A stretch of 64,000 nucleotides of DNA from Umezawaea tangerina (GTDB taxonomy: Bacteria; Actinomycetota; Actinomycetes; Mycobacteriales; Pseudonocardiaceae). The notes beneath the pieces were generated by a model. It saw only the letters and a program-made list of their open reading frames with translations. It ran no database searches and was not told where the DNA came from. Positions within the stretch are counted from its first letter, which is position 1, and every line of letters starts with the position of its first letter. Positions 6,295-47,173 of the stretch are shown here, piece by piece. The stretch spans positions 620,001-684,000 of the forward strand of contig NZ_PVTF01000004.1 of the NCBI RefSeq assembly GCF_003002815.1, given 5' to 3'. A program made the position numbers and the translations under genes.

Positions 6295-6359
6295 CTCTAT
6301 GCCCACCACACCTTGTCAAGACAGCCCTATCGTCTTGACAAGGTGTGGTGGGCATAGAG
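6295..6359. repeat. Long perfect hairpin, copy A of a five-member family
   Basis: Bases 6295-6322 pair perfectly with 6332-6359 (28 bp), leaving a 9-base loop. The apex pairs GTCAAGAC with GTCTTGAC, as in all five copies; the lower stem (GCCCACCACACC side) is specific to this copy. It lies between cofC and the small gene at 6485. It could terminate transcription, but the conserved apex argues for more than that. Confidence 0.9.
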
Positions 6360-6484
6360 CACTCGGCGAGCGGGTTGGAGGCATGTCCCCCACGACGGCG
6401 AGCAAGTCACATCCCCCACGACGGCGAACAACTCACGCCCCCACAACGGCGAGCAAGAACAGACAACCCACTACCGTCACCCAC

Positions 6485-6679
6485 ATGACCGAACAGGCCA
6501 CCGTCAGCACCTACAACGACGACGGTTCCGCCACCCTCCTCACCGACCAAGGCCTCCTCCTCGACGCCTCCCCCGCCTCCGTCTCAACAGGCCACTGGCG
6601 CCATCTCCGCCCCGGCCAACGGGTCACTCTCCGTCGCGACCCCCGCGGCGTCGTAACCGCCGTACTCCGTCCGGCCTGA
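6485..6679 (+). CDS. Small conserved-looking hypothetical protein (64 residues)
   Basis: The 64-residue product begins MTEQATVSTYNDDGSATLL and contains the basic segment RPGQRVTLRRDPRGVVTAV. The alternating strands and the closing basic strand recall a small beta-barrel nucleic-acid-binding fold, but no family is recognised. There is no Shine-Dalgarno before ATG 6485. A TACCGT hexamer ends seven bases upstream, which would suit a leaderless transcript. It sits between cofC and ppk on the same strand. Function unknown. Confidence 0.7.
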   Translation: MTEQATVSTYNDDGSATLLTDQGLLLDASPASVSTGHWRHLRPGQRVTLRRDPRGVVTAVLRPA

Positions 6680-6781
6680 CGCCGGCCCGTTCCGCCCCGA
6701 TTCCAAGCCGGGTGTGACCGGGAGTTCACCTCGTAGTCGCCGCCAGTCGGGGCGATAACGCGGTTTGCACGGCACAATGCA

Positions 6782-9052
6782 GTGGTGACCACGGACGACA
6801 GCGACGACAAGGTGACGCCGAAGCGACGGACCCGGACGGCCGCGTCCGCGGGGACCCCGCGGCGCAAACCCCGCCCCGCGACCCGTCGTGCGAAGACCCC
6901 CGACCCGGTTGTCGAGTCGCCACCCGCTGTGACGACCGGTTCGAGGTCGGTGCCGTCGTCACCGCCCGCCGTGACCGCCGGGGAGGAGCTGACCCCGGAT
7001 CTGCCGGACGACCGCTACTTCAACCGGGAACTGTCCTGGTTGGACTTCAACGCGCGGGTGCTGGCGCTGGCCGAGGACGCGTCGCAGCCGCTGCTCGAAC
7101 GGGCGAAGTTCCTGGCGATCTTCGCGTCGAACCTCGACGAGTTCTACATGGTCAGGGTCGCGGGGTTGAAGCGCCGCGACGAGACCGGGTTGTCGGTGCG
7201 CAGCGCGGACGGCCTGACGCCGCGCGAGCAGCTGGCGAACATCTCCAAGCGGACGCAGGAGCTCGTGGAGCAGCACGCGCGGGCGTTCCTCGACCACGTC
7301 GGTCCTGGTCTGGACAGCAGCGGGATCAGCCTGGTCACCTGGGCGGAGCTCACGGACTTCGACCGGTTGCGGTTGTCGAACTACTTCAGCGACCAGGTGT
7401 TCCCGGTGCTGACGCCGCTCGCGGTCGACCCGGCGCACCCGTTCCCCTACATCTCGGGGCTGTCGTTGAACCTCGCGGTGACGGTGCGGGACCCGGAGGG
7501 CGGCACCGAGCGGTTCGCGCGGGTGAAGGTGCCGGACAACGTGCCGCGGCTGGTGCGCGTGGAGGCGGACCGGTCCAGCAGCTCGGCGACGTTCCTGCCG
7601 CTGGAGCAGCTCATCGCCGCGCACCTGGGCGAGCTGTTCGCGGGCATGGAGGTCATCGAGTGCCACGCGTTCCGGGTCACCCGCAACGCCGACCTCGACG
7701 TCGAGGAGGACCGCGACGAGGACCTGCTGCAGGCGTTGGAGCGCGAGCTGGCGCGCCGCCGGTTCGGGCCGCCGGTGCGGCTCGAGGTCGCCGACGACAT
7801 GACCGAGCACATGCTGGAGCTGCTGCTGCGGGAGATGGAGGTCGACCCGCACGACGTGGTGCAGGTGCCGGGTCTGCTGGACCTGTCGTGCCTGTTCCAG
7901 CTGTACAGCCTGGACCGCAAGCAGCTGAAGGACCCGGCGTTCGTGCCCGCCACGCACCCGGCGTTCGGTGAGCGCGAGACGCCGAAGAGCGTGTTCGCGA
8001 CGCTGCGCGAGGGCGACGTGATGGTGCACCACCCGTACGACTCGTTCTCCACGAGCGTGCAGCGGTTCATCGAGCAGGCCGCGGCGGACCCGCACGTGCT
8101 GGCGATCAAGCAGACGCTGTACCGGACGTCGGGCGACTCGCCGATCGTCGACGCGCTGGTCGACGCGGCCGAGGCGGGCAAGCAGGTCGTGGCGCTGGTG
8201 GAGATCAAGGCGCGGTTCGACGAGCAGGCGAACATCAAGTGGGCGCGGCAGCTGGAGAAGGCGGGCGTGCACGTCGTGTACGGGCTCGTCGGGCTCAAGA
8301 CGCACTGCAAGACGTCGCTGGTGGTGCGCCAGGAGGGGTCCACGATCCGGCGGTACTGCCACATCGGCACCGGCAACTACAACCCGAAGACCGCGCGGCT
8401 GTACGAGGACGTCGGCATCCTGACCGCCGAGCCGTCGGTGGGCGCGGACCTGACGGACCTGTTCAACGTGCTGACCGGGTACGCGCGGCAGGACAACTAC
8501 CGCAGCATCCTGGTCGCCCCGTACGGGGTGCGGCGCGGCATCGTGGAGCGCATCCAGGACGAGATCGACCTGGCCCGCGCCGGTCACCCCGCCGGGGTGC
8601 GGATCAAGGTGAACTCGCTGGTCGACGAAGAGGTGATCGACGCGCTGTACCGCGCGTCGCAGGCCGGTGTGCGGGTGGACGTGGTGGTGCGCGGGGTGTG
8701 CGCGCTCAAGCCGGGCATCCGCGGGCTGAGCGAGAACATCCACGTGCGGTCGATCCTCGGCCGGTTCCTGGAGCACTCGCGGGTGTTCCACTTCGTCGGG
8801 GCGGACGAGCACTGGATCGGCAGCGCTGACATGATGCACCGCAACCTGGACCGCAGGGTCGAGGTGCAGTTGCGGGTCACCGGCCCGAAGCTGACCGCCC
8901 AGCTCGACGACATGTTCGATTCGGCGCTGGAACCGGCCACCCGCTGCTGGGTGTTGCGGTCGGACGGCGAGTGGGACGCGTCCCCCTCCGACGGAACGGT
9001 GGTGCGCGACCACCAAGTGGAGATGCTGCGCAAACACCGCGCGCTGGCCTGA
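6782..9052 (+). CDS. ppk: Polyphosphate kinase
   Basis: PPK1 reversibly makes polyphosphate from ATP. The 756-residue protein has the N-domain start [14 protein letters not shown] and [18 protein letters not shown]. The phospholipase D-like catalytic half follows, with the KTHCKTSLV motif (His about 508, equivalent to the autophosphorylated His), [19 protein letters not shown], and the second His motif [10 protein letters not shown] basic extension of about 70 residues ([18 protein letters not shown] region) precedes the fold and is probably disordered. The GTG at 6782 is used; a GTG at 6785 is equally possible. mutT1 follows after 15 bases on the same strand, as in Rv2984-Rv2985. Confidence 0.97.
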
Positions 9053-9067
9053 CCTCGGAGGAGACGC

Positions 9068-10006: not shown

Positions 10007-10596
10007 CGCCTCTGCCCAGGCCAGGACCCCGGCGGTACCCCCGACGGGCTCCCAGGAACCCCTCAGCCCCGCGGAACGCCGCACCTCCGCCTAGGCGTGC
10101 GCACCGGGCGGTCCGGCACGGTCGCGGGTCCCGTCGACCGCGCGGCGCGGACCGGTTCCGCCGCTGCGAACGCGCCGACGCGAACCGCCGGGCAACGCAC
10201 CGACCGGTCTGGACACCGGGCGCCGAAAAGGGCTCACCCGGTGCCTCGTGGCCATTGCCGAACGGCTTCGACCAATACCACCGCGTACGCGGGACGGGCC
10301 CGGTCGGTTCACCGCCTTGGCCCTTCGGGAGATCCGCACCGGACTCCACTGCGGTGGTCCGGGGAATGCCCGACCCACCTCCGGAGTGCGGTCTCCGCGC
10401 TCCGATTGGAGTGCACGTGCATAGCGGATCCGCGATGACGCGGAGAGCCCGCGCCTTGTCGGCTCGACGGCGGCGGATCTGGTTCCGGCGTTCGGGTGGA
10501 ATGCCCGCGGTCGTCCTATCCGGTTCGCGGTAAGCCATACGCGACCCGTATCGCGAGCGGGTGCGGCGCATTCCCGGCGGCACCGGTGCCCAGGCA
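10007..10596. other. 590-base gap without a convincing gene
   Basis: Open frames here have compositions unlike their neighbours and no ribosome-binding sites. Inverted repeats are present: CGGAGTGCGG at 10382-10391 pairs with CCGCGCTCCG at 10395-10404 (10 bp, one G.T), and a CCGGAC...TCCGG hairpin lies near 10343-10366. A structured non-coding transcript is possible but not shown. Confidence 0.5.
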
Positions 10597-10639
10597 AACG
10601 CCAGGGCCCGATGCGCGTCCGCATCGGGCCCTGGGCGTT
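10597..10639 (-). terminator. Intrinsic-type hairpin downstream of hupB
   Basis: A perfect 15-bp stem (10601-10615 with 10620-10634, 4-base loop) is extended by four more pairs past a bulged G. It lies 30 bases beyond the hupB stop and acts as its likely terminator. There is no long T-run, which is usual in this group. Confidence 0.8.
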
Positions 10640-10668
10640 GGTGCTGCTCCCGTTTCCGGGAGGTGGTG

Positions 10669-11599: not shown

Positions 11600-11603
11600 G
11601 TTC

Positions 11604-12206: not shown

Positions 12207-12224
12207 GGTCTCGGTGTTCCCTTC

Positions 12225-14731: not shown

Positions 14732-14741
14732 CCCCAATCTG

Positions 14742-14814
14742 TAGCCCCGATGGGATTCGAACCCACGCTACCGCCTTGAGAGGGCGGCGTCCTAGGCCGC
14801 TAGACGACGGGGCC
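14742..14814 (-). tRNA. tRNA-Glu (anticodon CTC)
   Basis: The 73-base gene folds as a tRNA. Its acceptor stem is GGCCCCG/CGGGGCT with a G.U first pair, and the anticodon loop CTCTCAA is closed by CCGCC/GGCGG, giving anticodon CTC. The T-loop is GGTTCGAATCC and the discriminator base is A. CCA is not encoded. It is downstream of tRNA-Gln on the same strand and near gltX. Confidence 0.96.
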
Positions 14815-14890
14815 CTAGGGTAATTCTTTTGTCTTGCCGGTCTTGCTTGTTGCGGGAGTAGCGTATCAGACTCTGATTTCTACTCTGCAG

Positions 14891-14962
14891 CTGGGGTACC
14901 AGGACTCGAACCTAGACTGACTGAACCAGAATCAGCCGTGCTGCCAATTACACCATACCCCA
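14891..14962 (-). tRNA. tRNA-Gln (anticodon CTG)
   Basis: This 72-base tRNA has acceptor stem TGGGGTA/TACCCCA, a weak first pair typical of tRNA-Gln. The anticodon region GATTCTGGTTCA gives CTG, and the T-arm is GGTTCGAGTCC. The discriminator is G. It probably forms one transcript with tRNA-Glu 76 bases downstream. In this group Gln-tRNA is made by GltX misacylation followed by GatCAB, all encoded in this window. Confidence 0.96.
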
Positions 14963-17532: not shown

Positions 17533-18780
17533 ATGGAACGGAGCACGTGCGTCGTCGTCGGCGGCGGACCGACGGGGATGGTCATGGGACTGCTGCTCGC
17601 GAGGGCGGGCGTCCAGGTCACCGTGCTGGAGAAGCACAAGGACTTCCTGCGCGACTTCCGCGGCGACACGGTCCACGCCTCCACGTTGACGCTGCTGGAC
17701 GAGCTGGGGCTCGGACCGGCGTTCGCACAGGTGCCGCACCAGCTGCTGGACCGCATGCAGGTGCTGCTCGACAGCGGGCCCGCGACCGTGGCCGACCTGA
17801 GCAGGCTGCCCGGCAAGCACAAGCACATCGCGTTCGTGCCGCAGTGGGACTTCCTGGACCTGCTCGCCGACGCCGGGAAGCTGGAACCGACGTTCTCGCT
17901 GCGGATGAACACGGGGTTCACCGGGCTGGTGAAGACCGGCGGGCGGGTCACCGGCGTCCGCTACCGGACCTCCGACGGCGTCGACGGCGAGATCGCCGCG
18001 GACCTGGTCGTGGCCGCGGACGGACGCGGGTCGCTGGTGCGGGACGAGACCCTGCTGCCCGTGCGGTCGTTCGGGACGCCGATGGACGTGTGGTGGTTCC
18101 GGGTCCCGCGCAAGGCCGACGACCCGACGGGCGGACTGGCCCGGTTCGGGCGGAGCAGCGGACTGGTGATGCTGGACCGCGGCGACTACTTCCAGATCGC
18201 CTTCCTGATCCGGAAGGGCACGGACACGATGCTGCGGGAAGCGGGCGTCCAGGCCTTCCGGGACCGGATGGTGGCACTGGTGCCCATGCTGGCCGACCGG
18301 ATGGACGCGGTGGAGTCGCTGGACGACGTGAAGCTGCTGGACGTGAAGCTCGACCGGCTGTCGCGGTGGCACGCGGACGGCGTGCTGTGCATCGGGGACG
18401 CGGCGCACGCAATGTCACCGATCGGCGGTGTGGGGATCAACCTGGCGGTGCAGGACGCGGTGGCCGCGGCCTCGCTGCTGGCGGGGCCGTTGCGGAAGGG
18501 GCGGGTCGCGGTGGACGTCCTGGCAAAGGTGCGGCGGAGGAGGTGGCTGCCGACCGTGGTGACGCAGGGGGTGCAGAGGGTGATCCAGAACGCGCTGCTG
18601 AGGCGGGCGCTGGACGGGAAGGTGGACGTGGGGGCGGCGGGAGTGCCGTTGCCGATCCGGGTGCTGCAGAAGGTGCCGGTGTTGCAGGGGGTACCGGCGT
18701 ACATGGTGGCGATCGGGTTGAGGCCGGAGCATGCGCCGGGATTTGCGCGGAGGGAGCCGGGGGTGAGGGGGAGGGGGTGA
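17533..18780 (+). CDS. FAD-dependent monooxygenase (PHBH fold)
   Basis: The 415-residue flavoprotein begins with the Rossmann motif VVVGGGPTGMVMGLLLARAG. It has the DG-type segment VVAADGRGSLVRDETLL and the second FAD motif CIGDAAHAMSPIGGVGINLA. Such enzymes hydroxylate or epoxidise aromatic or polycyclic substrates with NAD(P)H and oxygen; the substrate is unknown. ATG 17533 follows GAGGGG. An in-frame ATG at 17500 has an even better AGGAGG five bases upstream and would add 11 residues, but would put the operator-like repeat inside the gene. The C-terminal codons become very G-rich. The gene is isolated, with a repeat element downstream. Confidence 0.88.
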   Translation: MERSTCVVVGGGPTGMVMGLLLARAGVQVTVLEKHKDFLRDFRGDTVHASTLTLLDELGLGPAFAQVPHQLLDRMQVLLDSGPATVADLSRLPGKHKHIAFVPQWDFLDLLADAGKLEPTFSLRMNTGFTGLVKTGGRVTGVRYRTSDGVDGEIAADLVVAADGRGSLVRDETLLPVRSFGTPMDVWWFRVPRKADDPTGGLARFGRSSGLVMLDRGDYFQIAFLIRKGTDTMLREAGVQAFRDRMVALVPMLADRMDAVESLDDVKLLDVKLDRLSRWHADGVLCIGDAAHAMSPIGGVGINLAVQDAVAAASLLAGPLRKGRVAVDVLAKVRRRRWLPTVVTQGVQRVIQNALLRRALDGKVDVGAAGVPLPIRVLQKVPVLQGVPAYMVAIGLRPEHAPGFARREPGVRGRG

Positions 18781-18959
18781 GGGTTGGTGGTTCACGGTTC
18801 GCGGGAGGCTCGGCTTCCGGCGATCTCGGCGTGTGAAGCATGGGTTCCGGCCGTCCTGCCCCTGAGCTCGACTTCTGGCCCCCTCTGGGGAAGCCCAGCC
18901 CTCGCTTACGCCGTGCCCACCCCGTGCGAAGCCCAGCCCCCGGCGCGCGATTGTCTCAA

Positions 18960-19014
18960 TGCCTGATCTTGCTTGTCAAGACGATAGAGCTGTCTTGACA
19001 AGCAAGATCAGGCA
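18960..19014. repeat. Long perfect hairpin, copy B
   Basis: A 23-bp perfect stem (18960-18982 with 18992-19014) encloses the loop GATAGAGCT. The flanks GCGCGCGATTGTCTCAA on the left and GGAGGGCGCTGTGGATCGGG on the right are shared with copies D and E. It sits between two convergent genes. Confidence 0.9.
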
Positions 19015-19048
19015 GGAGGGCGCTGTGGATCGGGGGCAGAGGGGAAGT

Positions 19049-19178
19049 CTGGCTTCGCCAGCATCAGGCTCCGCCTGACTCAGGCATCCTCGCTGCGCGT
19101 CGGACAGGACATCCTTGCTGCGCTGCGGACAAGGCCCCAGGCACTACGCGCCGGATGCGCGCTGGCGGGCTGCGCCCA
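19049..19178. repeat. Array of short palindromic units, copy B
   Basis: Units include CTGGCTTCGCCAG, CAGGCTCCGCCTG, CGCTGCGCGTCGGACAGG and GGCGGGCTGCGCCC. They closely match the array of copy D in order and spacing, with small substitutions. Confidence 0.75.
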
Positions 19179-19227
19179 ACATTTGTGGCGGCGTGGGTGG
19201 GTGGGTGGGTGGTGGGGTTTGGGTGTT

Positions 19228-19905
19228 TTAAGGGTTTGTGGTTGGTAGGCCGCTTGGTTCTACGGCGCCTGATTCGTTGAGGACCATGGCTACCGCGTGG
19301 GCGCGGTCGCGGGCGCCTAGTTTGCGGAGGATGGCGCGGACGTGGGATTTGACGGTGTCGGTGCTGATGAAGAGGCGTTGGGCGATGCGGTGGTTGTCGA
19401 GGCCCTTGGCCACTTCTGCCAGTACGTCGAATTCTCTGGCGCTGAGTCTGTTGAGGGCTGCCGGCGGGGGGAGTCTGGAGGGGAGTCGGGCCAGTTCGCC
19501 GAGGTGGGCGTCGACGGTGGCGGTGGCGCCGTGGGCGACGGCGAGCATGACGGGGAGGAGTTCGACGAGGGGGGTGGTTTTGAGGAGGTAGGCGGCGGCG
19601 CCCGCGTCGAGGGCGGCTTGGGCCCAGTGCTTGCTGTCGCGGTTGGACAGGACGATGACCTTGGCGCGGGGCCTGCGGGTGGTGGCGTCGTGGACGGTGC
19701 GGAGCGGGCCGGCGCCGGGGATGTCGACGTCGGTGATGACGATGTCGACGGGGGTGGTGCGGAGGTGGTGCTGGGCCTGGGCGGCGGTGTGGGCTATGGC
19801 CACGACGCGGAAGGTGCGCGTGCGGTTGAGCGAGGTCCGCAAACCCTCGGTGATGAGCTGCGCGGCATCGACCAGCAGCACACGGGGGCACTCGTCATCG
19901 AGCAC
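19228..19905 (-). CDS. LuxR-type (NarL/FixJ-like) response regulator, orphan, degenerate acidic pocket
   Basis: The protein is 225 residues from GTG 19905, which follows GGAGGT by six bases; a GTG at 19929 would add eight Gly-rich residues. Residues 1-125 form a receiver-like domain with VLLVDAAQLITEGL, the phospho-acceptor region IVITDVDIPG and LLKTTP. The usual acidic pair at the first strand is reduced to one Asp (VDAA). Residues 150-215 form a LuxR helix-turn-helix: LSAREFDVLAEVAKGLDNHRIAQRLFISTDTVKSHVRAILRKL. No sensor kinase is adjacent. It may be phosphorylation-independent or act with a distant kinase. Confidence 0.85.
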   Translation of the reverse strand: MLDDECPRVLLVDAAQLITEGLRTSLNRTRTFRVVAIAHTAAQAQHHLRTTPVDIVITDVDIPGAGPLRTVHDATTRRPRAKVIVLSNRDSKHWAQAALDAGAAAYLLKTTPLVELLPVMLAVAHGATATVDAHLGELARLPSRLPPPAALNRLSAREFDVLAEVAKGLDNHRIAQRLFISTDTVKSHVRAILRKLGARDRAHAVAMVLNESGAVEPSGLPTTNP

Positions 19906-20071
19906 TTCGCCACCTCCACCAGGCCCCACGGCCTGATGAACACGGGAAGTTACCCGTCAGTAAGCCAGTGCGGTACCTGCGACCGGGAGGTTGGGCCAGG
20001 CGGCCCAGCGCGGGGGTGTCCGCGCTGGTCGCCGCAAACCTTTGCGCGCCGGTTTTCCCAGATGGAGCGGT

Positions 20072-33136: not shown

Positions 33137-34732
33137 CTACTCGAAGCTGACCGAGCCGACCTTGTGCGCGCCCACCGAGGCGCCGATCGGGTCCAGCACC
33201 TGGGTGTCGACCTGGCGGTCCACCCGCAGCAGCATGAACGCGTCCGAGCCGTCCGTGGTCTGGCTGATCTGCGCGGCCTCCACGTTCACGCCCGCCTCGC
33301 CCAGCAGCGTGCCGACGGTGCCCATGACGCCGGGGCGGTCCGGGTACTCCAGCAGCAGCACGGTGCCCTCGGCGCGCAGGTCGAAGCTGCGGCCGTTGAT
33401 GCCCACGATCTTCTCGACCTGGTCGAGACCGGTGAGCGTGCCGGACACCGAGAGCACGGTGCCGTCGACCTGCACCGCGCGCACCGTGACGAGGCTGCGG
33501 TGGTTCGCGCTCTCCGGCTCCTTCACCAGCTCGACCGCGACGCCCAGCGACGACGCCAGGTTCGGGGCGTTGACGAAGGTGACCTGCTCCTCGACGACGC
33601 TGGAGAACACACCGCGCAGCGCGGCCAGCGGCAGCACGGCGACGTCCTCGTTGGACAGCTCGCCGCGCACCTCGACGGCGACCGAGCGGGGCGCCTTGGT
33701 CGACAGCGCGGCCAGCACGGTGCCGAGCTTCTGCACCAGCGGCAGGTACGGGCGGACCTCCTCGCCCACGACGCCACCGCCCTGGACGTTCACGGCGTCC
33801 GGCACGAAGTCGCCCTGCAGCGCCAGCAGCACCGAGCGCGCGACGTCCGTGCCCGCGCGGTCCTGCGCCTCGGTCGTGGACGCGCCCAGGTGCGGGGTCA
33901 CGACGATGTTCGGCACGCCGAACAGCGGGCTCTCGGTGGTCGGCTCGGTGGAGAACACGTCGATGCCCGCACCGCCGACCTGGCCCTCGCGCACCGCGTC
34001 GGCCAGCGCCTGCTCGTCCACCAGACCACCGCGGGCGGCGTTCACGACGATCACACCGCGCTTCGCCTTCGCCAGCTGGTCGGCACCGATGAGCCCCTTG
34101 GTCTCAGGCGTCTTCGGCAGGTGGATGGAGATCGCGTCCGAACGCTCCAGCAGCTCCTCCAGCGTGACGAGCTCGATGCCGAGCTGCGCCGCGCGCGCCG
34201 CGGAGACGTACGGGTCGTAGGCGATCAGGTTCACGCCGAACGCCGCGACACGGGCCGCGAACAGCTGCCCGATCTTGCCGAGGCCGACGACGCCCACCGT
34301 CTTGCCGTTGAGCTCGATGCCGTTGAAGGAACTGCGCTTCCACGTCCCCGCCTGCAACGTGGCGTGGGCCGCGGGCACCTGGCGGGCGACCGACAGCAGG
34401 AGGGCCACGGCGTGCTCGGCGGCCGACACGATGTTCGACGTGGGCGCGTTGACCACCATGACACCGCGGGCGGTGGAGGCGGGCACGTCGACGTTGTCGA
34501 GACCGACACCGGCGCGCGCGACGACCTTCAACCTCGTGCTCGCGGCGAGCACCTCCGCGTCCACCTTCGTGGCGGAGCGCACCAGCAGCGCGTCGGCGTC
34601 GGCAACGGCTTCGAGCAGCGCGGGACGGTCGGTGCCATCGACATGGCGCACCTCGATCCCGTCACCGAAAACGTCGAGCACCGAGGGGGCCAGCTTCTCG
34701 GCGATCAGGACAACAGGTCGGCTCGTGCTCAC
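33137..34732 (-). CDS. serA: D-3-phosphoglycerate dehydrogenase
   Basis: SerA makes 3-phosphohydroxypyruvate, the first step to serine. The 531-residue long form has the substrate domain (VVARAGVGLDNVDVPAS) and the NAD domain (VGVVGLGKIGQLFAARVAAFG). The catalytic Arg-Glu-His set appears in NAARGGLVDEQAL, DVFSTEPTTE and TPHLGASTTEAQDRAG. An ASB intervening domain and a C-terminal ACT domain (VLLLEYPDRPGVMGTVGTLL) follow, as in the M. tuberculosis enzyme feedback-inhibited by serine. GTG 34732 has GGAG about nine bases upstream. Equivalent to Rv2996c. Confidence 0.96.
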   Translation of the reverse strand: MSTSRPVVLIAEKLAPSVLDVFGDGIEVRHVDGTDRPALLEAVADADALLVRSATKVDAEVLAASTRLKVVARAGVGLDNVDVPASTARGVMVVNAPTSNIVSAAEHAVALLLSVARQVPAAHATLQAGTWKRSSFNGIELNGKTVGVVGLGKIGQLFAARVAAFGVNLIAYDPYVSAARAAQLGIELVTLEELLERSDAISIHLPKTPETKGLIGADQLAKAKRGVIVVNAARGGLVDEQALADAVREGQVGGAGIDVFSTEPTTESPLFGVPNIVVTPHLGASTTEAQDRAGTDVARSVLLALQGDFVPDAVNVQGGGVVGEEVRPYLPLVQKLGTVLAALSTKAPRSVAVEVRGELSNEDVAVLPLAALRGVFSSVVEEQVTFVNAPNLASSLGVAVELVKEPESANHRSLVTVRAVQVDGTVLSVSGTLTGLDQVEKIVGINGRSFDLRAEGTVLLLEYPDRPGVMGTVGTLLGEAGVNVEAAQISQTTDGSDAFMLLRVDRQVDTQVLDPIGASVGAHKVGSVSFE

Positions 34733-34940
34733 GGACGTTGCTCCCAGGGCATCGGGGATCAGATGGGGAGCGCGGGCCACGGCCGGATGGGCGCCGTCGG
34801 CAGCCGCGCCGACCGGCCACGGCAATGTGTCCGGACTGTTAACGAGTCTAGTCAGCGAGGTCTCGGGAGCCGACGTCGGGTGTCCCACCTCACCAGGGGA
34901 TTCACCAGTACGGGTGTCCCGGTGACCTGCGGTCTCATGG

Positions 34941-35048
34941 TGTGGGAGGGGTGGGGTGGAGGGTTCGGGGGTGGGGGGTTGGAGGTTCGGGGTGGGGGTG
35001 GATTTGGGGGGTGGGTTGGGGATTTTTGGGGGGATTTTTTTGGGGGGC
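34941..35048 (+). repeat. G-run tract with quadruplex-forming potential
   Basis: About thirteen runs of three to six G on the plus strand (such as GGGGGTGGGGGGTTGG) are interspersed with T-rich spacers (GGGATTTTTGGGGGGATTTT). The tract ends 18 bases before hairpin copy C. Such tracts can fold as G-quadruplexes; nothing shows a role here. Confidence 0.6.
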
Positions 35049-35066
35049 ACCCCGGTCGCCGAGTGT

Positions 35067-35129
35067 TCTATGCCCACTCCTGTTTGTCAAGACGATAGGG
35101 CTGTCTTGACAAACAGGAGTGGGCATAGA
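35067..35129. repeat. Long perfect hairpin, copy C
   Basis: A 27-bp perfect stem (35067-35093 with 35103-35129) with loop GATAGGGCT. The foot of the stem (CTATGCCCAC) is shared with copy A, but the middle (TCCTGTTTG side) is different and is matched by compensating bases on the other arm. Confidence 0.9.
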
Positions 35130-35173
35130 GGTGGCTTCTCGGCGGGGTGCGTGGGGGGAGTGTGGGTGGGGAG

Positions 35174-35370
35174 GGCATCCGACGCTCCGCGACGGACACT
35201 GCATCCTCGGCTGCGCCGTCGGACAGGGCTCTAGGCGCTCCGCGCCGGATGCGGGGTGGCGGGCTGCGCCCGGTGGGGGATCCTCGCTGCGCGTCGGACT
35301 GGGCATCCTTGCTGCGCGGCGGACAAGGCTCTAGGCGCTCCGCGCCGGATGGGGGTGGCGGGCTGCGCCC
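35174..35370. repeat. Array of short palindromic units, copy C
   Basis: Units such as GGCTCTAGGCGCTCCGCGCC and GGCGGGCTGCGCCC occur twice, with GCATCCT-GCTGCGC-GGAC units between. It is the longest array in the window and includes an internal duplication of about 100 bases. Confidence 0.75.
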
Positions 35371-35472
35371 TACGTTGGGTTGGTGTGTTTGGTTTCGCTG
35401 TTGGGTGGGGGCGTTCGTGCTGCGTGTTGGCAAAGCGTCCTGGGCTTTGCCCTCTGACGAAGCGGTTGGTGG

Positions 35473-35739
35473 TTACCAGGGTTCGTCGAATTCGCCGTCT
35501 TTGGCGCCGAGGATGAAGGCGTCCCATTCGGCGGGGGTGAAGACGAGGACTGGGCCTTCTGGGTGGGCGGAGTTGCGCATGGCTACGTAGGTGATGCCGT
35601 CGGTGTGTTCGACGAAGGCGATCTCGACGTGTTCGCCGTCGGGGTCGCCCTCGTCGCCGCGCTGCCACTGGGCGGCGGTCAGGTCGAGGTTGCCGCGCAC
35701 GTGCGCCTTGTCGTCGTAGATCGGCGCGCTTTCCGTCAT
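35473..35739 (-). CDS. DUF397 protein
   Basis: The 88-residue product contains the DUF397 core VEIAFVEHTDGITYVAMRNS followed by PEGPVLVFTPAEWDAFILGA and DGEFD. DUF397 proteins are small acidic actinobacterial proteins, usually next to an XRE-family helix-turn-helix gene and sometimes acting as its antagonist. No such partner is adjacent here. ATG 35739 has GGGG too close to be a good ribosome site, but TATACC ends seven bases upstream, so the mRNA may be leaderless. Confidence 0.85.
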   Translation of the reverse strand: MTESAPIYDDKAHVRGNLDLTAAQWQRGDEGDPDGEHVEIAFVEHTDGITYVAMRNSAHPEGPVLVFTPAEWDAFILGAKDGEFDEPW

Positions 35740-35751
35740 ACCCCTAGGTAT

Positions 35752-35790
35752 ACCGGAGCCCGCGGTGCTCGTGGCATCGCGGGCTCCGGT
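35752..35790 (-). terminator. Terminator after ilvC
   Basis: A perfect 13-bp stem (35752-35764 with 35778-35790, loop of 13) lies 14 bases after the ilvC stop and would end the ilvBNC transcript. Confidence 0.8.
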
Positions 35791-35804
35791 GGTCGCGGTG
35801 CAGC

Positions 35805-36857
<1,053 letters not shown>

Positions 36858-40722: not shown

Positions 40723-42567
40723 GTGCCCTCGCTACGGTCCCGAATCACCACCCACGGCCGCAACGCCGCGGGAGCCCGTTCGCTGTGGCGGGCCACCGGC
40801 ATGACCGACTCGGACTTCGGCAAGCCGATCATCGCCATCGCGAACTCCTACACCCAGTTCGTGCCCGGTCACGTGCACCTGCGCGACCTCGGCGACATCG
40901 TGGCCGAGGGCATCCGCGAGGCGGGCGGCGTGCCGCGGGAGTTCCACACGATCGCGGTGGACGACGGCATCGCGATGGGGCACAGCGGCATGCTCTACTC
41001 GCTGCCCTCGCGCGAGGTGATCGCGGACGCGGTCGAGTACATGGTGAACGCGCACCAGGCCGACGCGATCGTGTGCATCTCGAACTGCGACAAGATCACG
41101 CCGGGCATGCTGAACGCGGCGCTGCGGCTCAACATCCCGGTGGTGTTCGTGTCGGGCGGGCCCATGGAGGCGGGCAAGGCCGTCGTCGTGGACGGGGTGG
41201 CGATCCCGTCGAGCGACCTGATCACGACGATCTCGGCGTCGGCGAACGCGAACGTGGACCAGAGCGGGCTGGACGAGGTCGAGCGCTCGGCGTGCCCGAC
41301 GTGCGGGTCGTGCTCCGGCATGTTCACCGCGAACTCGATGAACTGCCTGACCGAGGCGCTGGGTCTCGCGCTGCCGGGCAACGGGTCGACGCTGGCCACG
41401 CACGCCGCGCGCCGCGACCTGTTCGTCGAGGCAGGCAGGACCGTCGTGGAGCTGGCCCGCCGCTGGTACGAGCAGGACGACGAGTCCGCGCTGCCCCGGT
41501 CCATCGCGAACCGCAAGGCGTTCGAGAACGCCATGGCGCTGGACATGGCGATGGGCGGCTCGACCAACACCGTGCTGCACATCCTCGCCGCCGCGCAGGA
41601 GGGCGAGATCGACTTCACGCTCCAGGACATCGACGACATCAGCCGCCGGGTCCCCTGCCTGTCGAAGGTGTCGCCGAACTCGGACTTCCACATGGAGGAC
41701 GTGCACCGCGCGGGCGGCATCCCCGCGCTGCTCGGCGAGCTCGACCGCGGCGGCCTGCTCAACCGCGACGTGCACTCGGTGCACAGCCCGTCGCTCTCGG
41801 AATGGCTGGCCGAGTGGGACGTGCGCGGAGCTTCCCCCTCCGAGCGGGCCGTGGAGCTGTTCCACGCGGCGCCCGGCGGGGTGCGGACGACCGAGGCCTT
41901 CTCCACCTCGAACCGCTGGTCCTCTTTGGACACCGACGCGGCGGAGGGGTGCATCCACGACGTGGAGCACGCGTTCACCAAGGACGGCGGGCTGGCGGTG
42001 CTGCGGGGGAACCTGGCGGAGCGCGGGGCGGTGATCAAGGCCGCGGGGATCGACGAGGAGCTGTGGCACTTCGAGGGGCCGGCGCGGGTCGTGGAGAGCC
42101 AGGAAGAGGCCGTGTCGGTGATCCTCAAGAAGGAGATCCAGGCCGGGGATGTGCTGGTCGTGCGGTACGAGGGGCCTGCCGGTGGGCCGGGGATGCAGGA
42201 GATGCTGCACCCGACGGCCTTCTTGAAGGGGTCCGGGCTGGGCAAGAAGTGCGCGTTGATCACGGACGGGCGGTTCTCGGGCGGGTCGTCGGGGTTGTCG
42301 ATCGGGCACGTGTCGCCGGAGGCGGCAGGCGGCGGGGTGATCGGGTTGGTGCAGGACGGGGACCGGATCCTGATCGACGTGCACGAGCGGCGGCTGGAAC
42401 TGCTGGTGGACGAGGACGTGCTGGCGGAGCGGCGGGCGAAGATGGAGGCGAGTGAGCGACCTTGGCAGCCGGTGGATCGGGTTCGGCCGGTCACGGCGGC
42501 TTTGAGGGCTTATGCGCGGTTGACGACGGATGCGTCTACGGGGGCTGTTCGGGATCCGTCGCGGTAG
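40723..42567 (+). CDS. ilvD: Dihydroxy-acid dehydratase
   Basis: IlvD dehydrates dihydroxy acids to the keto acids of valine and isoleucine. The 614-residue protein has the cluster cysteine motifs [12 protein letters not shown] and [18 protein letters not shown]. The active-site Ser motif is [23 protein letters not shown] 40723 follows GGAGGAG. It is on the opposite strand to ilvBNC and has no leader peptide of its own. The downstream gap carries repeat copy D. The 3' codons become richer in G than the rest. Confidence 0.97.
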
Positions 42568-42708
42568 TTCCGGGGTCTTGGGTGGCCGGAATTGTCGGAC
42601 CCTCTGAGTAGGTTGTGCATCGGGGGGTCTTCACGGGCGGGGGACCTTTGGTCTGGTTTGTCCGGGTCAGGAAGGGGAAGCCCGGCCCCCGGCGCGCGAT
42701 TGTCTCAA

Positions 42709-42763
42709 TGCCTGATCTTGCTTGTCAAGACGATAGAGCTGTCTTGACAAGCAAGATCAGGCA
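42709..42763. repeat. Long perfect hairpin, copy D
   Basis: A 23-bp perfect stem (42709-42731 with 42741-42763) with loop GATAGAGCT. Stem, loop and flanks are the same as copy B, 23.7 kb away, over roughly 135 bases with few differences. Confidence 0.9.
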
Positions 42764-42797
42764 GGAGGGCGCTGTGGATCGGGGGCAGAGGGGAAGT

Positions 42798-42944
42798 CTG
42801 GCTTCGCCAGCATCGAGCTCCGCCTGACCAGGCATCGGGCTCCGCCCGACACTGCATCCTCGCTGCGCGTCGGACAAGGCATCGGGCTTCGCCCGACAAG
42901 GCCCCAGGCGCTCCGCGCCGGATGCGTGCTGGCGGGCTGCGCCC
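42798..42944. repeat. Array of short palindromic units, copy D
   Basis: Units are CTGGCTTCGCCAG, GAGCTCCGCCTG, CGGGCTCCGCCCG, CGCTGCGCGTCGGACAAGG, CGGGCTTCGCCCG, GGCGCTCCGCGCC and GGCGGGCTGCGCCC. The two CGGGC...GCCCG units are present here but not in copy B, so arrays gain and lose units. Confidence 0.75.
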
Positions 42945-42986
42945 AACGGGGCGGGGGGTGGCTGGGTGGCTGGGTGGCTTTGGTGG

Positions 42987-43691
42987 TTAGACGGAGCGGA
43001 AGACGTAGAGGGTTGCGGCTACTGCGGCGGCGGAGATGACGAGGAAGATGCTGCCGCTGAGGAGGGGGCGGCGGAACCAGCTGCGGCCGTAGTCGAGGGC
43101 GGCGCGGCCGGGGCCGGTGAAGAGGAGGGTGAAGGCCATGACGGCGAAGGAGGACTCCTGTTCGACGCCGGGTGCGCCGAAGAAGCCGCCGCCCCACTTC
43201 ACCACGATGGCGTTGGCCATGACGCCGAGGATGCCGGCGGCGGCCAGGGGGGTGAACAGGCCGAAGACGAGCAGGATGCCGCCGCCCAGTTCGGTGACGC
43301 CGGTCACCCAGGACAGGATGCGGGCCTCGCGGAAGCCTGCGGACTCGAGGAACTTGGCGAAGCCGTCGATGCCGGGGCCGCCGAACATGCCGAAGACCTT
43401 CTGGAGCCCGTGCACGACGAACGCGGCGCCGAGGGCGACCCGGAGGACGAAGAGGCCCAGGTCGGTGCCGCCGTTCCAGGCGAACACGCGGCGGCGGTCG
43501 TAGTCGTCCTCGAAGTGCGAGGACACCGGGTCGACCGGGGTGTAGCCCGTGTTGTCGAAGGACTTGGTGCTGGAGTCGAAGGACTGCGTGCCGTCGTCGA
43601 AGTGGTGCACGCCCCCGCTCGCGCTGCTCGCCGGGTAGAACCCGTCGTCGGGGTAACCACCTGAGCCGGAACGGTCGTCGTGAGTAGCCAC
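42987..43691 (-). CDS. DoxX family membrane protein
   Basis: The 234-residue protein has a polar N-terminal region of about 80 residues (SSASGGVHHFDDGTQSFDSS). The DoxX domain follows with four membrane helices: LGLFVLRVALGAAFVVHGLQ, ILSWVTGVTELGGGILLVFG and later segments. A fifth hydrophobic segment lies at the C-terminus. The mycobacterial DoxX protein at this locus (Rv3005c) acts with superoxide dismutase and SseA in redox defence. GTG 43691 has no Shine-Dalgarno, but TATCGT lies eight bases upstream, consistent with a leaderless mRNA. Confidence 0.88.
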   Translation of the reverse strand: MATHDDRSGSGGYPDDGFYPASSASGGVHHFDDGTQSFDSSTKSFDNTGYTPVDPVSSHFEDDYDRRRVFAWNGGTDLGLFVLRVALGAAFVVHGLQKVFGMFGGPGIDGFAKFLESAGFREARILSWVTGVTELGGGILLVFGLFTPLAAAGILGVMANAIVVKWGGGFFGAPGVEQESSFAVMAFTLLFTGPGRAALDYGRSWFRRPLLSGSIFLVISAAAVAATLYVFRSV

Positions 43692-43774
43692 GAACCGGCA
43701 CGATAGGAGAATCGGGCGACGTTGGCGAGGGTCCATTCCGCCGGACCCGCTGCTGCGGATGCCGAGGCGGGCCC

Positions 43775-44689
43775 TCAGTAGTCGCCTTTCACCAGGTTGA
43801 GGGGCTGCTCACCGGCCGCGAACCGGGCGATCTCGCGGGTGGCGACCCCGTAGGAACGGCGTTCGGACCCCGTGCAGCTCCCCGCCACGTGCGGCGTGAG
43901 GAACAGGCCGGGGGCGGTCCACAGTGGATGGTCCTCGGGCAGCGGCTCGGGCTCGGTGACGTCCAGGGCGGCCCGGAGGCGGCCGCTGGTGAGCTCGGCG
44001 ACCAGCGCGTCGGTGTCGACGACCGGGCCGCGGGCGGCGTTGACCAGGATCGCGCCGTCGGGCATCGCGGCCAGGAACGCGGCGTCGACCATGCCCGTCG
44101 TCTCGTCGGTCAGCGGCACGACGACCAGCACGGCGTCGTGCTCGCCGAGCAGCACGGGCAGCTCGTCCATGCCGTGCACGCGGTCGCGGGCGGTGCGGCC
44201 GACCAGGGTCGCGGTCGCGTCGAACGGCTCCAGCCTGCGCCGGAACTGCTCGCCGAGGTCACCGGCGCCGACGACCAGCACGCGCTTGTCCTGGAGGGTG
44301 TCGGTGCGGTGGAAGTCCCAGCGGCGCTCGCGGCGGGCGGCGTCGAACGCCGGGAAGTCGCGGTAGATCGAGAGCAGCGCGCCGATCGCCCACTCCGCGG
44401 TGCTGCCGCCGTGCGCGCCGCGGCACGTGGACAGCAGCACGCCCTCGGGGAGGGTGCCGATGAAGCGCTCGGCGCCCGCGCTGAGCAGCTGGACCAGCTC
44501 GAGCTTCGGGAGCTGCGCGTAGACGTCGGACGGGTTCGTCCCCTGGAGGAACTTCGGCACGAGCACGCGGGCGTCGGCGGCTTCCGGTGGCAGCGGTTCG
44601 CCCGCCTCGTAGCGGACGGCGCGGACACCGTCCACCGAGGACAGCGCGGACAGGCCGTAGTCGTCGGGGACGAGCACGATGAGCGTCAC
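43775..44689 (-). CDS. D-2-hydroxyacid dehydrogenase (NAD-binding)
   Basis: The 304-residue protein has the NAD-binding motif VLVVGAGDLGEQFRRRL and the catalytic segments VNAARGPVVDTDAL (Arg), DVTEPEPLPEDHPLW (Glu) and FLTPHVAGSCTGSERR (His). The N-terminal substrate domain is short. The 2-keto acid or 2-hydroxy acid substrate is unknown. GTG 44689 starts 28 bases from the divergent hydrolase gene, so their promoters overlap. Confidence 0.9.
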   Translation of the reverse strand: MTLIVLVPDDYGLSALSSVDGVRAVRYEAGEPLPPEAADARVLVPKFLQGTNPSDVYAQLPKLELVQLLSAGAERFIGTLPEGVLLSTCRGAHGGSTAEWAIGALLSIYRDFPAFDAARRERRWDFHRTDTLQDKRVLVVGAGDLGEQFRRRLEPFDATATLVGRTARDRVHGMDELPVLLGEHDAVLVVVPLTDETTGMVDAAFLAAMPDGAILVNAARGPVVDTDALVAELTSGRLRAALDVTEPEPLPEDHPLWTAPGLFLTPHVAGSCTGSERRSYGVATREIARFAAGEQPLNLVKGDY

Positions 44690-44717
44690 CCCTGCAAGCT
44701 ACGGCACACTGTCGCGC

Positions 44718-45647
44718 ATGCAGGAGCACGACGTCGTCTCGGCGGACGGCACGCGGATCAGGGTGTGGCGGTCGGACGCGGAAGGGCCAGTGGTGCTGCT
44801 CTGCCCCGGCCTCGGCACGACCCCGGAGACCTGGCCCGCGCTGCTGCTGCCGACGTGCGGAGTGCGGGCGCTGAGCTGGTACCACCGCGGCACGATGGGG
44901 TCGGCGCGACCGGAGGACGAGTCGCGGATCGCGCTGGCCGACCACGTGGCGGACGCGCTCGCGGTCCTGGACGACGCGGGCATCGAGCAGTGCGTGGTGC
45001 TCGGCTGGTCGATGGGCGTGACGGTCGCCGCCGAACTGGCGTTGAAGCACCCCGACCGGGTGTCCGGGCTGATGCTGGTCGCGGGCGCCCCCGGCGACTC
45101 GTTCGAGTCCATGCTCGGCGTCTCCGGCCTGCCGTCGGACCTGCGCAGGCTCGTCGGGCTGACCGGCGCGAAGGCGCTGCGCGCCGCCGGTCCCCTGCTG
45201 GACCTGGTGCTGCACCGGCTGCCGATCAACGACGTGACCACGTTCCTGCTCCGGCACAGCGGCCTGATGCTCGCCTCCAGCGCGCCCGAGGCCGTCGCGG
45301 GGTCGATGAGCCGGTTCATGAAGCACGACTGGACCTGGTACTTCACGTTGGCGCTCGCCCTCGGGCAGGTGCCGAGGCAGGACCTGACCGGCGTGACCTG
45401 CCCCACGACCGTGCTCGCCGGCAAGTACGACCTGCTGGCGTCACCCGAAAGCATGGCCGGTCCCGCGGGGACGTTGCCCCAGGCGCGGGTGCGCGTGCTC
45501 CCGACCAGCCACTTCCTGCCGCTGGAGGCTCCGGACGTGCTCGCCGAGGAGCTGTTGCTGCTGGTCGACCGGGTCGACGCCGTGCACCGGGCCCTGTGCG
45601 ACCTCGACCCGCCGCCACTCACCTCGGGTTCACGGCAGCGCGCCTAG
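44718..45647 (+). CDS. Alpha/beta hydrolase
   Basis: The 309-residue protein has the nucleophile elbow VVLGWSMGVTVAAELAL (Ser), the oxyanion-loop region LLCPGLGTTPETW, an acidic residue in VLAGKYDLLASPES and the catalytic His in VLPTSHFLPLEAPD. It may be an esterase or a lactonase; the substrate is unknown. ATG 44718 is used; an in-frame GTG at 44679 would overlap the divergent gene. The 3' end lies close to the lipoprotein gene. Confidence 0.88.
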   Translation: MQEHDVVSADGTRIRVWRSDAEGPVVLLCPGLGTTPETWPALLLPTCGVRALSWYHRGTMGSARPEDESRIALADHVADALAVLDDAGIEQCVVLGWSMGVTVAAELALKHPDRVSGLMLVAGAPGDSFESMLGVSGLPSDLRRLVGLTGAKALRAAGPLLDLVLHRLPINDVTTFLLRHSGLMLASSAPEAVAGSMSRFMKHDWTWYFTLALALGQVPRQDLTGVTCPTTVLAGKYDLLASPESMAGPAGTLPQARVRVLPTSHFLPLEAPDVLAEELLLLVDRVDAVHRALCDLDPPPLTSGSRQRA

Positions 45648-45658
45648 TGTCACCTCTC

Positions 45659-46849
45659 GTGTCACGTCCTCAGCGGTTGCTCCGCGCGGTCCTGGCGAGC
45701 ACGGCCCTCTGCCTGCTCGCCACCGGCTGCGCGAGTTTTCCCGAGCAGCCGTCGCCCGCGGGCTGGAGCGCCCAGCCGCAGCTCACCCCCCAGGCGGGCC
45801 CGACACCCGAACTGCCAGGCGGACTGCCGCAGGCGGGCGGTGAGCAGCAGGGCGGCCAGCCCCCCGCCTCCGTCCCCCCGCCCGAGGGCTGCAAGGACTT
45901 CAGCCCCGCCGTCGTCGCGACCTGCCTCAACCCGATCTCCGGTGTCGCGCTGACCGACGTGAACCAGTCCACCGGTGTCGTCACCGCTCTCGCGACCGAA
46001 CGCACCACCGGCAAGCTCCTCAAGGTCACCAAGGACGTCGACCCCGTCGAGGTCGCCAGCTTCCCCGTCGACGCCACGTCCGACGGCGGCCTCACCGGCC
46101 TCACCCTGTCCCCGTCCTACGGCGAGGACCAGCTCGTCTACGTCTACCTCACCACCGACACCGACAACCGCGTCGTCCGCATCGCCCCCGGCGACACCCC
46201 CAAACCGGTGCTCACCGGCATCCCCAAGGGCCCCACCGGCAACCGCGGCGTCCTCGGCTACGACCGCGAAGGCGCCCTGCTCGTCGCCACCGGCGACGCG
46301 GGCAACCCCGCCCTCGCCACCGACCCGACCTCCCTCGCGGGCAAGGTCCTCCGCATCGACGCCGCGGGCCACCCCGCCAAGGGCAACCCCACCACCGGCT
46401 CCGCCGTCCTCACCAGCGGCCTCCGCTCCCCCGGCGGCATCTGCGTCTCCGCCGACGGCACCAAGACCTGGGTGACCGACGCCACCCCCACCGCCGACGT
46501 CCTCTACCGCGTCGACGCCGGCAAACCCCTCACCACCCCCGCCTGGTCCTGGCCCGACAAACCAGGCGTCACCGGCTGCGCCTCCCTCTCCAACATGATG
46601 TGGGTCGCCACCTCCAACACCCCCGGCACCCAGATGATCGCCATGAACCCAGAAGGCGCCTTCACCGGCAAACCAGAACCCTTCCTCGACAAGGAAAACG
46701 GCTTCGGCCGCATCGGCCCCCTAGTCGCCCTCGACGACAACACCGCCCTCGCGGGCACCGTCAACAAAGCAGGCGGCACCCCCATCTCCAGCGACGACCG
46801 CGTAGTCATCATCGTCCGCGACGCCGCCAGCGGCGGCAGCAAGGACTAG
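45659..46849 (+). CDS. LppZ-like lipoprotein with sugar dehydrogenase-type beta-propeller
   Basis: The 396-residue exported lipoprotein has signal peptide and lipobox LCLLATGCAS (Cys about 22). A Pro/Gln/Gly-rich spacer (about 25-75) is followed by a six-bladed propeller of the glucose/sorbosone dehydrogenase type (GLTGLTLSPSYGEDQLVYVY; LRSPGGICVSADG). The PQQ-binding residues of true dehydrogenases are not evident. At this locus Mycobacterium encodes LppZ (Rv3006), of the same architecture. GTG 45659 is the likely start. A repeat copy follows. Confidence 0.85.
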   Translation: MSRPQRLLRAVLASTALCLLATGCASFPEQPSPAGWSAQPQLTPQAGPTPELPGGLPQAGGEQQGGQPPASVPPPEGCKDFSPAVVATCLNPISGVALTDVNQSTGVVTALATERTTGKLLKVTKDVDPVEVASFPVDATSDGGLTGLTLSPSYGEDQLVYVYLTTDTDNRVVRIAPGDTPKPVLTGIPKGPTGNRGVLGYDREGALLVATGDAGNPALATDPTSLAGKVLRIDAAGHPAKGNPTTGSAVLTSGLRSPGGICVSADGTKTWVTDATPTADVLYRVDAGKPLTTPAWSWPDKPGVTGCASLSNMMWVATSNTPGTQMIAMNPEGAFTGKPEPFLDKENGFGRIGPLVALDDNTALAGTVNKAGGTPISSDDRVVIIVRDAASGGSKD

Positions 46850-46908
46850 CAACAACAAAAACAGACGGCAGCGAGCAAACGAGCAAGCACGCACCAACCC
46901 CACACATT

Positions 46909-47084
46909 GGGCGCAGCCCGCCAGCGCGCATCCGGCGCGAAGCGCCTGGGGCCTTGTCCGCCGCGCAGCAAGGATGCCCTGTCCGACGCGAAGCGCGGAT
47001 GTTTGGTCCGACGGCACAGCCGAGGATGCCTCGTCGGACGGAGTCCGATGCTTGAGTCGGCGGAGCCGATGCTGGCGAAGCCAG
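46909..47084. repeat. Array of short palindromic units, copy E
   Basis: In reverse orientation to copies B and D. Units include GGGCGCAGCCC, GGCGCGAAGCGCC, CGGACGGAGTCCG and CTGGCGAAGCCAG with GATGC-type linkers. Confidence 0.75.
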
Positions 47085-47118
47085 ACTTCCCCTCTGCCCC
47101 CGATCCACAGCGCCCTCC

Positions 47119-47173
47119 TGCCTGATCTTGCTTGTCAAGACAGCTTCACCGTCTTGACAAGCAAGATCAGGCA
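47119..47173. repeat. Long perfect hairpin, copy E
   Basis: A 23-bp perfect stem (47119-47141 with 47151-47173), inverted relative to B and D. The loop is AGCTTCACC, which on the other strand reads GGTGAAGCT and so differs from the GATAGAGCT loop. The flanks match copies B and D. Confidence 0.9.

Follow-up and report, generated by a model that had tools for sequence, protein, structure and literature searches.

A dispersed family of covarying DNA hairpins with promoter-like architecture and a one-strand mutation halo in Umezawaea tangerina and other Pseudonocardiaceae

The chromosome of Umezawaea tangerina, a soil actinomycete of the Pseudonocardiaceae, carries a large family of dispersed non-coding hairpins that have the layout of a predicted promoter and are surrounded by a mutation halo biased towards one strand. 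Five of these elements, named A to E in order of position, lie in the stretch of 64,000 nucleotides analysed here (hereafter the window; positions 620,001 to 684,000 of contig NZ_PVTF01000004.1), and the same apex is found 131 times in the whole genome of 10.68 Mb (G000). The arms of the hairpins covary, their sequences appear to be overwritten from other copies of the genome, and cytosines of the plus strand, defined in the orientation of the element, are preferentially lost on both sides. The explanation that we favour, tentatively and on the strength of sequence comparison, is that of a hairpin promoter or priming element linked to single-stranded DNA (ssDNA).

The five hairpins of the window have perfect stems of 28, 23, 27, 23 and 23 bp closed by 9-nt loops, and are located at 6295–6359 (A, minus strand; loop GATAGGGCT in element orientation), 18960–19014 (B, plus strand), 35067–35129 (C, plus strand), 42709–42763 (D, plus strand) and 47119–47173 (E, minus strand), coordinates, stem lengths and loop length being as described in an original prediction made from the letters of the window. 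Their apex pattern, GTCAAGAC-N-GTCTTGAC, has five matches in the window versus 0 in 100 shuffles, and 131 in G000 (81 and 50 according to loop start) versus 0 for the same pattern reversed. The claim of a dispersed family with a conserved apex and compensated stems, as opposed to a decayed terminator, is borne out. A general apex pattern (GTCAAGVC..GBCTTGAC, again with the reversed pattern as control) finds 132 copies in G000, of which 131 have the exact A.T version. All copy counts require an intact apex, decayed copies being invisible to the search. Reading of all 131 copies, in the window and in loci L019–L127, extends to the genome the two subfamilies already predicted, with 32 copies of type A (A and C in the window) and 99 of type B (B, D and E).

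The hairpin proper is part of a longer element, the extent of which the original prediction had underestimated: the conserved core measures about 110 bp or more and includes internal loops and an outer covarying stem, followed downstream by a chain of mini-hairpins. From 5′ to 3′ in element orientation, the left half consists of the outer stem, a left internal loop with ATTGTC or AGTGTT, the variable stem and TT-GTCAAGAC; the 9-nt apical loop, of consensus GRTRRRGCT, is followed by GTCTTGAC-AA and then by the complementary variable stem, a right internal loop and the outer stem. The asymmetric loop is conserved too, and its orientation goes with that of the flanks. The outer stem is CACCCCG/CGGGGTG in type A and GCCCCCG/CGGGGGC in type B, and is found in the window at 6276–6282/6371–6377 (A), 18936–18942/19031–19037 (B) and 35048–35054/35143–35149 (C). 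The mini-hairpin chain, delimited approximately, by eye, occupies 6128–6265 at A (minus strand) and 19048–19190 at B (plus strand). Within the 131 copies of G000, 498 units were parsed, with a median of four per copy; 431 have the core C-TNC-G, and many recur exactly among copies. Such chains were read in two of the three Umezawaea genomes, and none was seen in U. endophytica or in the loci of other genera read by eye. The units resemble the stable d(GCGNAGC) mini-hairpins, a likeness only, and the DNA folding stability of the chain of B is not above that of shuffles on either strand.

The two arms of the stems change together. Over the 13 pairs below the apex, 123 of the 131 copies of G000 are perfectly paired, with 62 different left arms, and mismatches occupy 18 of 1703 cells (2 G.T, 8 A.C). 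Relatives were studied through 23 of the 118 pattern copies of G002 and 19 of the 76 of U. endophytica (G001), both sisters of the same genus, and through a set of 125 copies from several other genera, drawn mainly from high-copy genomes; their stems are perfect in 18/23, 19/19 and 100/125 cases, respectively, with 15 G.T and 20 A.C mismatches among 1625 cells in the other-genera set. In an alignment (A1) of 52 out of 56 selected diverse copies, from which the chimeric or imperfect L099, L113, L016 and L135 were left out, 97% of cells are paired and 259 hold two-sided changes, versus 77 in shuffles. The covariation score is 0.489 versus 0.129 for shuffled alignments, none of 500 shuffles reaching it, and slid structures score at most 0.099. 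Five pairs of the outer stem, which forms the terminal inverted repeats, were scored in addition; three show two-sided changes and 91.9% of cells are paired. The covariation is genuine and, as far as is visible, pairing is maintained at the level of DNA, because neither G.T nor A.C mismatches are frequent or clearly favour one of the strands; a constraint on RNA should tolerate G.U on one strand, of which there is no clear sign. One imperfect chimeric stem subtype is present in both G000 and G002 (L113, L016, L131), so that some mismatched arms seem to be inherited uncorrected.

Comparison of orthologous sites separates the history of the sites from that of the stems. Seven of the 23 copies tested in G002, and 17 of the 19 in U. 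endophytica, have no G000 element at their site. The other 16 copies of G002 occupy sites shared with G000, with the same subtype in 16/16 and the same orientation in 15/16. Over the 15 pairs of same orientation, flanking genes are 91.5% identical, and the identity of the 11-nt variable arms is 0.39 to the ortholog versus 0.945 to the nearest G000 paralog and 0.47 between random pairs of the same type; when register shifts are allowed (16 pairs), orthologs reach 0.44 versus 0.50 for random pairs. The true ortholog ranks from 12th to 110th of 131, and an identity of at least 0.8 is reached in two of the 16 pairs. The pair L017/L052 has the loop GATGGAGCT in common and wholly different stems. 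Both U. endophytica–G000 pairs (n = 2) keep the same orientation, and one differs in subtype. A single site followed in nine genomes of the genus g11 contains the element in eight of them, always in the same orientation (none by pattern in G107), with one stem common to four genomes (once with a mismatch) and other stems in the other four. When two sites are read in six g11 genomes, their stems agree in G158 and G135, nearly agree in G132 and differ in G102, G119 and G122; stem homogenisation in this genus is partial. Copies L056 and L099 are chimeras with arms from two families, pointing to exchange through the apex. Sites persist, and stems, loop and apex are replaced and resemble other copies of the same genome. 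The original prediction offered a choice between selection for the structure and arm-to-arm conversion, both of which are possible; overwriting of copies between sites within a genome fits better, since orthologs differ (0.39), same-genome copies match (0.95) and chimeras exist.

The fixed parts of the element have the layout of a putative promoter, a property that had not been foreseen, like the halo described below. A −35 hexamer TTGACA lies in the apex arm of 131/131 copies (by symmetry both arms of the palindrome carry it), the variable arm forms a spacer of 17–19 nt, and a −10-like hexamer, mostly NACAMT, lies in the left internal loop. With A2 and T6 as criterion, spacers of 16–19 nt and at least 3/6 matches, this box is found on the left in 129/131 copies of G000, 22/23 of G002, 18/19 of U. 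endophytica and 121/121 of other genera (four copies with non-family loops having been dropped), and on the right in 2/131, 0/23, 0/19 and 1/121. With at least 4/6 matches, the left-hand counts are 98, 11, 13 and 90 in the same order, versus 0.3–1.8 in shuffles and 0 throughout on the right. In the window, predicted sites are located at 18950–18979 for B (minus strand, leftward, with −35 TTGACA at 18979–18974, an 18-nt spacer and −10 GACAAT at 18955–18950), at 42699–42728 for D (minus strand, TTGACA-18-GACAAT with TG before the second hexamer) and at 47154–47183 for E (plus strand, TTGACA-18-GACAAT). A promoter scan at D, separate from the copy count, scores this site 10/12 (shuffle mean 0.1). 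When the plus strand of B is folded as DNA (one copy; z −10.6), the −35 and most of the spacer enter the stem and four of the six bases of the −10 remain unpaired. The hairpin would thus be a predicted promoter folded upon itself and directed outward in one direction, and this layout would explain the fixed apex and left loop, the constant length of the arms and the freedom of their sequence.

Nearly every copy stands at the centre of a strand-biased halo. Averaged over the 131 copies in element orientation, GC skew reaches +0.37 and is positive to the left and to the right of the element; it fades over about 1 kb on the left and 1.5 kb on the right, and its mean is independent of contig orientation. 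It is positive in 130/131 left flanks (−600 to −80) and in 128/131 right flanks (350 to 900). In the window, the five 1-kb segments of greatest skew are all found no more than 0.8 kb away from the five elements and agree with them in sign. When its bounds are derived from the average over the genome, as opposed to copy by copy, the halo of D is placed at 41736–44236 (plus strand; about −1.0 to +1.5 kb in element orientation) and those of A, B, C and E at 4827–7327, 17987–20487, 34098–36598 and 45646–48146.

Substitutions around the five window elements, with the state common to G001 and G002 taken as ancestral, give this skew a direction. Plus-strand C has been substituted in G000 at 0.122 per site on the left (−600 to −100) and 0.220 on the right (+100 to +700) versus 0.033 beyond 2.5 kb, and G at 0.04–0.05 near the elements versus 0.031 far from them; C>G and C>T are the leading changes. 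Substitution of C is still raised farther right (0.065, 0.049) and is not raised farther left. Classed by the 3′ base, it has its minimum before C and its maximum before A, and no deaminase-like 5′ context is seen. At E, 120 of 339 C versus 6 of 356 G differ between G001, which is element-free, and the state common to G000 and G002. The flanks of D and E are skewed in G000 and G002, where the element is present, and much less so in G001, where it is absent (left flank of E: +0.25 in G000, +0.34 in G002, −0.03 in G001). The right flank of A has a skew of +0.29 in G000, +0.03 in G002 and −0.02 in G001, and coding flanks at C show little skew. In 14 gene intervals chosen by hand, third codon positions near elements evolve about twice as fast (0.142 versus 0.068), and first positions stand at 0.034 versus 0.013. 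Mini-hairpins were considered as a source of the right-hand halo and set aside, being uncorrelated in unit number within G000; right halos are shorter in U. endophytica and in the other-genera set, where no chain is seen in the loci read by eye. Two-ended break resection was rejected as the cause of the halo, since it would flip the sign of the skew across the element; a single sign on both sides designates the plus strand as the damaged strand.

This damaged strand would also be the template of the folded promoter, hence our preference for an ssDNA-linked promoter or priming element. The plus strand would recurrently become single-stranded around the copies and, when exposed, would suffer base damage repaired with errors, leading to loss of C on both sides. 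It would also fold, and RNA polymerase would bind the −35 and the spacer in duplex form while most of the −10 stays open, as in the Frpo/ssi hairpins of conjugative elements. RNA started at the folded promoter would prime resynthesis or signal the presence of ssDNA. Hairpins would be made alike through recombination among copies, and selection would keep a spacer that is perfectly paired and free in sequence.

The main rival explanation, which is possible although we hold it to be doubtful, is a selfish palindrome comparable to miniature inverted-repeat transposable elements (MITEs) or repetitive extragenic palindromes (REPs). Such a palindrome would be nicked or cleaved on extrusion and its hairpin copied from another copy during repair, gap repair leaving the halo, and the promoter match would be incidental or merely an outward duplex promoter. 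Patchy copy numbers (0–132 among relatives), element-free sites in the sisters, short terminal inverted repeats, the two chimeras and the scarcity of copies between divergent genes (5/131) are in keeping with it, as is the finding in PMC3681665 that long inverted repeats in yeast raise mutation in genes up to 8 kb away. However, the two sides of a resected two-ended break expose opposite strands, the bias here is of one sign on both, and a one-sided box at a fixed distance in 129/131 copies is hard to call incidental; moreover, neither a target-site duplication nor a transposase was identified (Y1 family, 0/13 high-copy genomes). Template switching inside each hairpin alone would maintain perfect arms with no inter-copy exchange and no function. 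This process is described in PMC8794818 as making multi-base compensatory changes and perfect stems, but it does not make same-genome copies alike or produce two-family chimeras, and the loop inversions that it should also generate are not observed, the −10 side being fixed relative to the loop in 129/131 copies; as a sole cause it is improbable and already disfavoured.

Strong covariation and location at gene 3′ ends could also reflect selection on RNA structure, the transcribed hairpins acting as 3′ end stabilisers or as a small RNA, but G.U-type pairs are few and not clearly commoner on one strand, no Rfam family is matched and the halo is left unexplained, which makes this explanation very improbable. 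Ordinary bidirectional terminators are the least probable of all. They would account for the 79 of 130 classed copies located between convergent genes, and a GC-rich hairpin stands at site D in G001; yet neither arm leads into a T run in the printed copies, judged by eye, and a common apex, loop, promoter-like box, flanks and halos are not expected of terminators. A terminator scan at D named another hairpin, and says little as it accepts loops of 3–8 nt only.

A number of observations weigh against an ssDNA-linked promoter. The −10 is weak (GACAAT, CACAAT; in type A only AACACT, 3/6), element A does not have the conserved A of the box, the shuffle control exists for the stricter score of at least 4/6 only, and the promoter could act on ordinary duplex DNA. 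Perfect stems are less frequent in G002 and in other genera than in G000, and halo strength is independent of stem perfection (p 0.35, with eight imperfect copies) and of the number of mini-hairpins (rho 0.004). A few copies show no halo when wider windows are used. Identification of the exposed strand depends on the substitutions near five elements; at −1000 to −600 G is substituted above C (0.063 versus 0.044), and changes found in G002 only have no clear C bias at C, D and E, although G002 has elements there. Conversely, at A and B the shared changes do have a C bias, even though G002 is now element-free at these sites, which may reflect the past presence of an element. Finally, no mobiliser was found in a search that covered the Y1 family.

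That search concerned the Y1 transposases (RAYT/IS200, TnpA-REP; PF01797). The RAYT-like partner suggested in the original prediction was not found: PF01797 is absent from all 13 high-copy genomes tested, G000 included, and its single occurrence among the 27 genomes searched is in G220, which has 0 copies of the apex pattern. By this Pfam test, which did not extend to other transposase families, the Y1 family is excluded as the mobiliser. Two element queries had no match among 72,556 plasmids or 50,697 phages, and three viral contigs with the 16-base apex were rejected because their printed flanks, judged by eye, bear no family resemblance. In the window, only two tRNAs exceed the Rfam gathering score; five relatives gave three chance-level matches to microRNA models below that score.

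No description of the element was found in the open-access literature, judged from search listings, and comparison with known systems shows what is new in it. The closest parallel for the fold is Frpo/ssi of the F plasmid, described in PMC11541004 as a hairpin with a −35 TTGACA and a −10 that imitates duplex DNA, which could let host RNA polymerase start on ssDNA; it is sited in the leading regions of conjugative elements, and its activity was shown. The present elements likewise hold TTGACA and a −10-like box at promoter spacing within a hairpin, with −35 and spacer paired and the −10 mostly open in the folded ssDNA of B (one copy). Unlike Frpo/ssi, they are chromosomal, lie at gene 3′ ends in up to about 130 copies, and have a perfect variable spacer stem, a halo and a predicted activity. 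With REPs and REPINs they share an extragenic, high-copy, palindromic nature and subfamilies with alternative complementary stem bases. REPs are 20–40 bp long, with GTAG or CGTC tags, often G-T pairs and, in many cases, tyrosine-transposase partners, according to PMC3733652. Here, in contrast, the element measures about 110 bp or more, with no GTAG/CGTC end tag, few G-T pairs and no Y1 transposase found. MITE- and ERIC-type elements are non-coding, with short terminal inverted repeats and intergenic dispersal, features that are found here (the outer stem forming the repeats) together with hairpins overwritten in place and a mutation halo, unlike those elements, and with no target duplication or autonomous relative identified. 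As in inverted-repeat-induced mutagenesis of yeast, mutation spreads from a palindrome into flanking genes, but the present case is natural, concerns many sites of bacterial genomes and biases one strand on both sides. The dispersed palindromic repeat is of a known kind; the promoter-like fold, in-place overwriting and one-strand halo are new.

The family is nearly confined to the Pseudonocardiaceae, and unevenly distributed within them. General-apex copies number 132, 118 and 76 in the three Umezawaea genomes, up to 88 in genus g11, 45 in g12, 42 in one g4 genome and 21 in g46, and many relatives have 0; as the reversed control gives 0–4 matches per genome, single matches carry little weight. 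Collection with a covariance model, which the original prediction had proposed and which scored at most about 10 places per genome, detects the element in 117 of the 386 genomes of the Pseudonocardiaceae and in 15 of 46 genera (E 0.001), and, in a class-wide sample of 394 genomes that also included some of the same family, in the source genome and one genome outside the family (E 1e-5). The apex, predicted to be conserved, and nearly invariant in G000, is not fixed in relatives, where GTCAAGGC/GCCTTGAC with the loop GGGAAAGAT is common.

Genera g25 and g26 have GTCAAGAC...GTCTTGAC palindromes just 5′ of start codons, often one per g26 genome. L156 (g25) and L157 (g26) look like regulator operators and were rejected as members; the g26 match L158, when read, is a member, and L144, L147 and L154 are other hairpins. 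In g11 (loci L139–L155), some 450–640 bp around a GTCAAGAC-type copy are conserved, at roughly 82–92%, across many genomes, up to a common point, at about position 1854 of the locus, past which the neighbours are no longer alike. This end is possibly an insertion hotspot; no tRNA gene was found at the segment.

At the five window sites, presence and form of the element vary among the sisters. Sites A and B are element-free in both, their flanking blocks being separated by about 14 and 63 bp in G002 and about 77 and 82 bp in G001, and represent either gains in G000 or losses in G002; element-free sites were thus available in a search for target-site duplications, but the flanks are too diverged to place junctions (global alignment poor at A and B). 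At C, G002 has an A-type element with another stem, and G001 has two elements; these lie in opposite orientations about 200 bp apart in one intergenic region (L192, about 19600–19900), like a REP pair. At D, G002 has a B-type element with another stem, and G001, element-free, has about 45 bp that include a GC-rich hairpin. At E, the G002 ortholog shows a one-sided apex change (GTCAAGGC/GTCTTGAC), and G001 contains 1.6 kb of other sequence. A stretch GGAATTGTCGGACCC...GGGGGTCTTCACG (window 42590–42650) adjoins D in G000 and the site C element in G002 (L194); it may be another small repeat, and holds a terminator-like hairpin.

Of the 131 copies, 79 lie between convergent genes, 31 and 15 between genes in the two tandem arrangements, 5 between divergent genes and 1 at a contig edge, a classification that contains at least one miscall; the preference for gene 3′ ends seen in it does not decide the function. 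Neighbours in the window include ilvC-, ilvD- and serA-type genes, among others. Both gene callers miscall site A, the likely neighbours of which are a CofC-like gene (4664–6067, plus strand) and a gene starting at 6485 (plus strand). A CHAT-domain protein with TPR motifs (47487–49994) adjoins E. Elsewhere in the window, genes for tRNA-Glu(ctc) and tRNA-Gln(ctg) stand side by side on the minus strand (14741–14962).

If an ssDNA-linked promoter or priming element is the right explanation, compensatory changes in stems, usually taken as proof of a functional RNA, would here arise from overwriting at the DNA level, and the family would offer a ready-made system to locate where ssDNA arises on bacterial chromosomes and to follow its effect on neighbouring actinomycete genes. 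A broader proposal, which we consider rather unlikely, is that the chromosomes of Pseudonocardiaceae contain a network of ssDNA promoters, each of them firing once its plus strand is single-stranded and forming a centre of strand-coordinated hypermutation around which third codon positions of neighbouring genes would change about twice as fast, with hairpins renewed between sites. Such a network, if real, would give bacteria an equivalent of the localised hypermutation hotspots that affect one strand.

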